From Syncephalis fuscata (Eukaryota > Zoopagomycota > Zoopagomycetes > Zoopagales > Piptocephalidaceae), in assembly GCA_025786725.1 (NCBI GenBank), contig JAHLTZ010000026.1, forward strand, positions 331,129 through 395,128: DNA of 64,000 nucleotides, written 5' to 3'. The notes under the pieces were generated by a model. The model made no database searches and had not been told where the DNA came from. It saw only the letters and a program-made list of their open reading frames with translations. Shown in pieces: positions 27,291-38,330 of this stretch. How positions within the stretch are numbered: the first letter of the stretch is position 1; every line of letters begins with the position of its first letter. The translations under genes were made by a program, and so were the position numbers.

Positions 27291-28717
<1,427 letters not shown>

Positions 28718-37147: not shown

Positions 37148-38209
37148 AGTTCAGTCCTATCACCAATACAGATATCTTGGAAGCAACGCTTATTCTGTGT
37201 TCATAAACATATACAATCATGCAGTATAATTAGCATATGAAATATAGATATATGATGTCACTTACAAGCTATTAATATTAGATTTTAATATAAGTATTAA
37301 ATATTATGTAATGGGCGTATTATTAACTAATATCTAATGTTACTTACGAGCTATCATTATGCTTAAATTGGTAATGCACGCAGTATAAATGATGGAATCA
37401 GCACATAACCAATTATATACGATATTACTTATGAGCTATTAGTGTTAAATTTTCAAAAACATATATGTATAAAGCCTGTTTAGTGAATAGTTAATTGATA
37501 CAATTATTACTTATGACCTATAAAGTACATAGAAGTAATTAATATGTAAATACTCTATATGCATTGTTACCTACGTCCTATTGATACAATTTATTAAACA
37601 CACACACAATGTATAATATGTAATTGGCATGTAGTTAATTGATATACGATAAAACTTACGAGCTATTCGTGTTGGTTATTAAAGATACAGTATATAATAT
37701 CTAATTAATACATCTTTAATCAAAACACAAAATTACTTACGGGCCATGAACGCTATTTTAGTTATACAAATAGTATTTAATTAGCTAAATAACTAATATT
37801 TTAGTTTTATTTTACCTCCTATTAATGGAAATTCAACATATTAGCACCATCAATACAATATTTTATTTATATTTAATGTTAAGCCTACCTTCATTTAATG
37901 GATTTGATTTATTTATTATACATTAACAAATAGCCATTAATCAACACATCAAAAACATATATTTTTATTACTTACCAACTAATATAATGCATTTAAAGCG
38001 CACAGTAAATGTTGGGATAACTATTTATAATTGCGACTTACTGGCTAATATTATGATTAGTTAGTTATAATCTAGTACGTATGCCAATATGCACATTTGT
38101 TATGATTATAACATACCATGACGGGCTAGAACTGGATTAGCATCCACCATGGCTGTACTGACTACAAGGGCTACGAGAATGTGCAGGTAACGGCAATAGA
38201 AAGCCTCAT
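37148..38209 (-). CDS. Predicted micro-exon gene with a run of 3-nt exons
   Basis: Exon 1 (38209-38117) encodes a signal peptide (MRLSIAV... then VALVVSTAMVDANPVLARH). It is one base shorter than its 94-nt paralogues, a break near 38180. Then follow, in order on the minus strand, tiny exons each between AG and a donor: CCA (38042-38044), TTG (37976-37978), GAG (37816-37818), a 12-nt exon (37741-37752), CTC (37660-37662), GAC (37575-37577), GTC (37515-37517), CTC (37433-37435), CTC (37348-37350) and CTT (37266-37268). Donors are GTAAGT (five of the 3-nt exons and the 12-nt one), GTAGGT, GTAAAA and, for GTC and CTC 37433, ATAAGT. All introns are phase 1. The spliced frame stays open (AIGAFMAPRRPPP) and closes with TGA formed at the junction with the exon at 37156. 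An AG|GTAGG site at 37888/37889 bisects the one long intron and may be a recursive splice site. Function unknown. Confidence 0.55.
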
Positions 38210-38330
38210 GGTGTCTTGATTTGTTAAATCAAACAAGTAAAATGGCCGATATATTGTAGTAATGATGCTACTAGTTATTTGTGTATATTTTGTGGTCTAT
38301 TTAAATCTATAATTGTGCTGAGATGTCGGC
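38115..38330 (-). repeat. Duplicated exon 1 plus promoter, copy B
   Basis: Partner of the 5660-5900 copy. Exon 1 and about 120 nt upstream align, including a GGTCTATTTAAATCTAT block (TATA-like on the minus strand) and a GATTTgTTAAatCAAACAAGTA leader segment. Confidence 0.6.

Follow-up and report, generated by a model that had tools for sequence, protein, structure and literature searches.

Tandem arrays of predicted one-codon exons behind a signal-peptide-like exon in the fungus Syncephalis fuscata

Whether the coding sequence of a gene can be divided by introns at nearly every codon is the question raised by a locus of the mycoparasitic fungus Syncephalis fuscata, on the minus strand at 37148..38209 of a 64,000-nt stretch of DNA that was analysed as a whole and is referred to here as the window (GCA_025786725.1, contig JAHLTZ010000026.1, positions 331,129-395,128 of the forward strand). 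Judged from its sequence and that of its relatives, the locus is very probably a decayed member of a large secreted-peptide gene family in which coding sequence is split almost codon by codon.

The window copy and its family

An earlier note on this DNA had described a run of AG-NNN-donor sites behind a signal-peptide exon, and nine such units do lie between 38044 and 37266 (Table 1), six of which (CCA, TTG, CTC, GAC, CTC and CTT, each followed by GTAAGT or GTAGGT) are clustered within 0.78 kb, in agreement with it. The remaining three of the nine, which it had listed as exons, have no normal donor, GAG being followed by GTAAAA and both GTC (37515-37517) and one CTC (37433-37435) by ATAAGT. 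Several finer points of that description have to be revised: exon 1 measures 93 nt rather than the 94 nt reported, the supposedly open spliced frame stops at codon 13 from the ATG, a 12-nt exon was not recovered, and the last junction, at which a TGA had been read, joins CTT to the acceptor that much of the family conserves (37194) as T|AA and gives TAA. A TGA created across the last junction does exist in one paralogue, L029. The window copy is a degenerate, decayed family member.

Table 1. Features of the locus and of a comparison gene in the window.
Feature	Position	Strand	Remarks
TATA-like element TTTAAATAG	38297..38305	-	same block common to paralogues; "TATA-like" is our label
Exon 1, signal-peptide-like with xPxLxR-type pro-region	38117..38209	-	93 nt (paralogues 94), in-frame stop at codon 13, decayed
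3-nt exon CCA	38042..38044	-	donor GTAAGT
3-nt exon TTG	37976..37978	-	donor GTAAGT
3-nt exon GAG	37816..37818	-	weak donor GTAAAA
Degenerate unit CCC	37741..37743	-	followed by GTAAGT (donor at 37740), without acceptor AG
3-nt exon CTC	37660..37662	-	donor GTAAGT
3-nt exon GAC	37575..37577	-	donor GTAGGT
Degenerate unit AG-GTC	37515..37517	-	followed by ATAAGT (without GT)
Degenerate unit AG-CTC	37433..37435	-	followed by ATAAGT (without GT)
3-nt exon CTC	37348..37350	-	donor GTAAGT
Last 3-nt exon CTT	37266..37268	-	donor GTAAGT
Start of terminal exon, with AA-TAA behind the last acceptor of the family and the 3'UTR block after it	37148..37194	-	block also in paralogues
Four MAP-kinase introns (comparison)	27391..28440	+	60-101 nt, GTAAGT donors, borders by eye

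Of 332 candidate places in the genome 40 were scored, and 39 of these are paralogues of the locus, with 67-84% identity to it; all 39 were fetched for analysis (L0 labels below denote fetched loci). A pattern joining the end of exon 1 to its donor gave 159 matches in the genome with up to three mismatches, as against none for the reversed control; these are candidate array genes, and some are near-identical duplicates, so that distinct genes are fewer. Exon 1 is open in 37 of the 39 loci, the exceptions being L012 and L017, where its frame is broken. It has the general form MKLSIAVVCTIVVALVASTAMVDA-xPxLxRR, with a conserved hydrophobic N-terminus that by inspection is signal-peptide-like; in most members it is followed by G|GTATGT, in phase 1. 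Among the matches listed, many arrayed and intronless paralogues also carry the TTTAAATAG block 5' of the gene.

At the other end, the array ends that were found are again in phase 1 and take the form NN-TAA, NN-CCA-TAA (L047), NN-CAA-TAG (L029 and L038) or a short open tail (L036), with the 3'UTR block standing after them. When ten loci were inspected by eye, the conserved end was seen in L013, L014, L021, L031 and L045 and was absent from L010, L011, L017 and L018; in the tenth, L012, it has no AG, for which reason that locus was left out of those with a terminal block.

For several array genes there are near-identical copies in inverted or displaced position (C1:475-477k and C1:531-534k; C57; C24/C279; C231/C84), which may be either segmental duplications or uncollapsed haplotypes. 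The NCBI protein models P0123, P0124 and P0129 run on past exon 1 and take in intron or other sequence of the arrays. This was seen by six-frame match for P0123 and P0129, both placed on arrayed members, and by eye for P0124; the two former lend no support to the arrays, and we consider the three models likely to be misannotated.

Exon length, spacing and splice signals

The earlier note had held that the motif exceeds chance and had called for a genome scan for clustered sites; the excess over chance is borne out. First, YAG-N3-GTAAGT occurs 4,841 times in the genome compared with 474 for the reversed pattern, while the corresponding N4 pattern stays at background (738 vs 731), and two adjacent TAG units are found 2,578 times but never in the control. 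Second, TAG-N3-GTAAGT occurs eight times on the two strands of the window against 0.69 expected from shuffles, none of 100 of which reached eight, and five of these eight sites belong to the locus. Third, in the 76,117 bases lying 3' of exon 1 in the 39 loci, 542 of 566 GTAAGT follow AG-N3. A chance origin of the array motif is ruled out by these genome-wide, 39-locus and window-shuffle excesses.

Other distances from AG to GTAAGT are rare in the same sequence, with counts of 11 (0 nt), 25 (1 nt), 2 (2 nt), 3 (4 nt), 0 (5 nt), 11 (6 nt), 1 (7 nt), 2 (9 nt), 3 (12 nt) and 7 (15 nt). The distances of 0 and 1 nt fall to one and zero cases when YAG is required, so most of them are an AG inside the triplet; of the rest between 2 and 15 nt, leaving aside 3 nt itself, 23 are multiples of three and six are not. 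We also applied a chain model that rewards donors and acceptors and has no prior on exon length, although its site weights were trained, separately for donors and acceptors, on 3-nt sites. Of its 573 exons in the 39 loci, 542 are 3 nt long and 564 are multiples of three, an architecture of short symmetric exons such as defines micro-exon genes, and the introns between them peak at 78-80 nt.

Among 581 donors after AG-N3 that match G[TC]A[AG]G[TA], 541 are GTAAGT, 22 GTAGGT, 12 GCAAGT, 3 GTAAGA and 3 GCAAGA; the arrays contain some GC-AG introns (the 12 GCAAGT and 3 GCAAGA of this pattern-selected set). With GT-AG or GC-AG ends and the genome's ordinary consensus, the array introns are of U2 type. 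The four introns compared, from the window's MAP-kinase gene, with acceptors ATAG, TTAATAG, AAAG and TTAG, resemble them in length and splice signals.

Reading frame and intronless paralogues

Fifteen chain models were forced to the conserved end, and ten of them are open throughout. L029 joins them once its two 10-nt model exons are taken as 3-nt exons that have a weaker donor. In L015 a stop comes two codons too soon, and in L019, L020 and L032 model exons break the frame. For the tests of stops and profiles we used 11 of the 15 models, leaving out L019, L021, L024 and L032. Their 333 codons in phase 1 hold two stops, compared with an average of 18.5 when exon order is shuffled, and none of 2,000 shuffles gave as few; phase 0 has one stop and phase 2 has 25. 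Given that stops are also rare in phase 0, the test rests on the order shuffles. The decoded mature parts are Cys-rich (C-x2-C-x3-C-x8-10-C and variants), Pro/Arg-rich (L031) or Ser/Thr-rich (L020). Searches of four decoded peptides against Pfam returned nothing above the curated cut-off, the best being Cys_box at 19.4 bits against a threshold of 29. A profile of intronless members found no significant match among solved structures; of the alpha-hairpinin type, vicilin-derived hairpins and BWI-2c appeared only at E 0.2-0.47, with unrelated folds at similar E.

Further evidence comes from paralogues in which the same kind of peptide is encoded without interruption. The NCBI protein P0121 is encoded in one piece at C236:180381-180587 and matches the decode of L036 at 59% over 90%, the signal peptide being included (E 2e-11). 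Among 150 scored of 313 candidates for P0121, at least 19 places, by our count, are open to residue 60 or beyond. Twenty copies were fetched as intronless and 19 are truly so; these 19 have the 5' region and exon 1 in common with the arrayed genes, and in 17 of them the 3'UTR block of the arrayed genes lies within 80 nt of the stop. The twentieth, L080 (C289:462613), was suggested to be intronless by the ORF search, yet seven N3-GTAAGT units follow downstream; it is an arrayed gene in which the frame of exon 1 stays open for some residues by chance.

A profile built from the tails of 17 of the 20 copies (without L077, L080 and L081, and with the tail of L071 shortened) was then compared with decoded tails lacking the signal peptide. 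L036, L039, L041, L042 and L047 score 14.3-18.9 bits, whereas the same five decodes score at most 1.4 in phase 0, in phase 2 or in reversed order, and at most 12.4 in 100 order shuffles per gene. L029 (-1.3) and L031 (-1.4) score below zero on this profile, and L038, L020, L022 and L015 give no score. L029 does have an intronless counterpart elsewhere. Its array is modelled with 49 exons (47 of 3 nt, and the two of 10 nt read as 3) and 50 introns of 72-81 nt. When the genome was searched in six frames with the decoded tail, again without signal peptide, a single match came up at an E limit of 1: on C79, an ORF without introns (E 1.6e-8). The two are identical over CTYSECMEKCKTYC, 14 residues in a row, in which ten codons are identical and four synonymous; the full alignment of the tails has 16 identical codons, nine synonymous and 18 replaced, and nine residues opposite gaps. 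For L039, L020 and L047, also searched by the tail without signal peptide, the genome gave no match, so that an intronless counterpart was found for one of the four searched. In a subfamily without the Cys pattern, AVAPLAKRA is decoded in both L018 and L020, whose first exons are 3, 3, 15 and 3 nt, and the intronless P0130 has the similar AVEPLAKRA.

These results bear on another interpretation, which would make the array a long conventional intron, or a tandem satellite, with AG-N3-GTAAGT as decoy or relic splice sites and with exon 1 joined directly to the terminal exon. The units are indeed tandem repeats, and the window copy and some other units are decayed. However, the ordered phase-1 triplets encode peptides homologous to intronless paralogues, shuffling their order makes about nine times more stops, the exon lengths come in multiples of three, and relics would hardly retain ten identical and four synonymous codons over 14 exons; we regard this interpretation as extremely improbable. 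A tandem satellite without coding role is ruled out by the stop shuffles, the profile scores and the intronless match of L029. The decodes thus support the proposal of tandem, symmetric 3-nt exons behind a signal-peptide-like exon for the paralogues, in order and in phase 1, though not in the degenerate window copy, and the DNA documents the arrays, their exon length, frame and stop, and their homology to intronless paralogues.

It could also be, in line with the exon skipping suggested in the earlier note, that the triplets are real but mostly optional, so that skipping would yield many alternative mRNAs and peptide variants. Nearly all units are symmetric and could be skipped without loss of frame, some donors are weak (GCAAGT, GTAAGC, GTAAGA), and some long model introns span lost units. 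Against this, the Cys spacing of the intronless paralogues is matched when the units are read in order, GTAAGT at 541 of the 581 pattern-selected donors after AG-N3 argues for constitutive use, and variation is already large in the DNA through many loci, codon changes and the gain and loss of whole units. Optional use therefore appears quite unlikely, and we favour a reading of the units in order.

Origin, working and kinship of the arrays

Near-identical paralogues gain and lose whole units; L028, for example, decodes to EPQVPVPVDENGRIITKSGSAGRT and L030 to EPQVPVENGRIITTGSAGRT. In comparisons of units with each other, pairs whose introns differ by less than 2% share the upstream codon in 44% and the downstream codon in 50% of 18 cases. 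Where introns differ by 2-5% the upstream codon is shared in 17% of 81 pairs, and beyond 20% either codon is shared in only 3-4% of 749. Codons thus move together with their introns. Between units, codons nonetheless differ more than introns do, at 44-68% of sites in the 99 unit pairs (nine loci) below 5%, compared with 2.9% for the introns. Between nine recent paralogue pairs the differing sites number 5 of 322 in codons, 132 of 12,876 in introns and 4 of 859 in splice sites; between four older pairs they number 30 of 79, 186 of 3,022 and 4 of 210, respectively, counting only columns in stretches at least 85% identical, and unit misalignment could inflate the older pairs. A hypermutating codon is ruled out, as codons change at about the rate of introns, and splice sites less, in the nine recent pairs; the codon excess in the older pairs may mean either that selection favours codon change or that introns are homogenised.

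On a tree of 57 exon-1 regions (without L012, in which the start of exon 1 was not recognised, and without L080) the intronless label needs six changes, at least three of them forced by well-supported branches, so arrayed and intronless forms were interconverted more than once. In six of the 19 intronless copies (L066, L067, L068, L072, L073 and L078, of which the first two hardly differ) the mRNA 3' end carries a run of 5-8 A, and L073 has no promoter either, features of copies derived from spliced mRNA.

The reverse course, in which intronless genes are ancestral and an introner-like intron invaded every codon, would replace cassette duplication and mRNA-derived intronless genes. It fits the observations that array introns can be near-identical while their codons differ and that, among the matches listed, many intronless and arrayed genes have a promoter region in common. 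Yet introns of low divergence share codons, so the cassettes carry the codon with them, insertions are not expected to give exact 3-nt spacing and constant phase, and the A runs in 6 of 19 intronless copies, together with the promoterless L073, point the other way. We consider invasion unlikely, and cassette duplication with mRNA-derived intronless genes the better account.

A family of inserts of about 400 nt is present inside the arrays of 9 of the 39 loci (L021, L022, L024, L026, L032, L037, L040, L043 and L047), about 20 nt past the 5' splice site. Several of them are flanked by direct repeats of intron sequence and contain, in antisense, what we take by eye, from its box motifs, to be a tRNA-like half; a search with ARAGORN that covered seven loci containing or adjoining such an insert gave no tRNA. 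The insert is a SINE-like element that has repeatedly hit the same spot of the unit.

From these elements the following working can be proposed. A 94-nt exon 1 would supply the signal peptide and a short pro-region, usually ending in a Kex2-like RR, in phase 1; as many as 50 or so exons would follow, exactly 3 nt long apart from a few of 6, 9, 12 or 15, separated by ordinary introns of about 79 nt, and a terminal exon would give two bases and soon a stop, each residue being encoded across a junction, with its first base at the end of one exon and the other two at the start of the following one. An exon of three nucleotides is too short to be recognised as such, so splicing would be intron-defined and sequential: the introns would be removed serially, probably from 5' to 3' during transcription, each round joining one codon to the growing 5' exon and bringing up the next GTAAGT donor. 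The product would be a small secreted peptide, often Cys-rich, trimmed after RR by a Kex2-type protease. As every cassette of intron plus codon is symmetric, cassettes could be duplicated, lost or altered without frameshift, and the peptide could vary residue by residue. What we infer for these genes is that they are spliced, and in this order, that the product is secreted and cleaved, and that it acts on the host fungus or on competitors. HSP90 of this genome points to the Zoopagales (89% to Thamnocephalis). Obligate mycoparasitism is described for relatives in that order, one of them a Syncephalis species (PMC6784888), and attack on or manipulation of the host fungus is a guess from this lifestyle.

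Several known systems resemble the arrays in part. Schistosome micro-exon genes (MEGs), from another parasite, likewise come in families built of many short symmetric exons; their proteins are secreted and start with a signal peptide, as is predicted here from the signal-peptide-like exon 1. MEG exons measure 6-81 bp (the abstract gives 3-81) and are for the most part of 15 bp, with 10-20 per gene and introns of 0.1-5 kb (PMC10526429). The exons of S. fuscata, by contrast, are nearly all 3 nt, up to 49 in a row, with introns of about 79 nt. A profile of nine intronless members searched against 5.8 billion proteins gave 14 hits at E<=1 (292 candidates), all of them from S. fuscata and none relating the family to MEGs. 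In a fungus, homology to MEGs would not be expected. Aphid bicycle genes, whose exons are longer than 3 nt, share with the arrays a large, fast-evolving family of putative effectors with many tiny internal exons in constant phase. Their internal exons are nearly all phase 2, and one megacycle gene has more than 100 microexons (PMC9168663); in intact members of the S. fuscata family exon 1 closes in phase 1, which is also the phase of the decodes matching paralogues. By function and architecture, we rate the arrays as belonging to the micro-exon gene kind, outside the MEG and bicycle families.

Introners are dispersed over unrelated genes. With introner-like elements a single fungal genome carries numerous short introns of near-identical sequence (PMC4457414), a trait shared with the arrays; the introns of S. 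fuscata stand in tandem, one codon each, inside one family, as far as the family loci compared go. Recursive splicing, whose sites leave no exon, and stwintrons also remove adjoining intron pieces stepwise. In stwintrons one intron is nested in a splice element of another (PMC8469720), whereas each step in S. fuscata would leave exactly one codon. Intron gain by tandem genomic duplication, described for a potato RdRp gene (PMC4974935), similarly ties duplication to new introns, while an arrayed gene of S. fuscata has units by the dozen. Among fungi, Xlr2 of Trichoderma virens contains a functional microexon, and the abstract (PMC11121469) states that none had previously been described in filamentous fungi; it differs from the arrays in being a regulated microexon of one transcription-factor gene. 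Within the open-access titles and abstracts covered, no array of one-codon exons was found; what came up for 3-nt exons were titles on mouse and plant microexons.

The arrays may represent what could be called a codon-cassette gene, in which serial splicing joins one-codon exons into the message for a mature secreted peptide, and evolution duplicates, deletes and re-letters single cassettes without shifting the frame, while intronless copies fix successful peptides; to us the chances that this full account is right are about even. Such a gene would be an extreme split gene, with up to 49 one-codon exons in succession, and the scale is considerable, with 159 exon-1-plus-donor matches and about 4,400 excess sites in one 29-Mb fungal genome. 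The family tests the lower limit of exon size, whether a spliceosome relying on intron definition alone can pass through 50 introns of about 79 nt in series, and in what way symmetric micro-exons aid the evolution of secreted peptides. Both NCBI models placed on arrayed members err after exon 1, which suggests that a class of candidate effector or antimicrobial peptides is overlooked when such genomes are annotated. If true, the codon-cassette gene would be a categorically new way to encode and evolve proteins, allowing the peptides of a mycoparasite to be diversified residue by residue.
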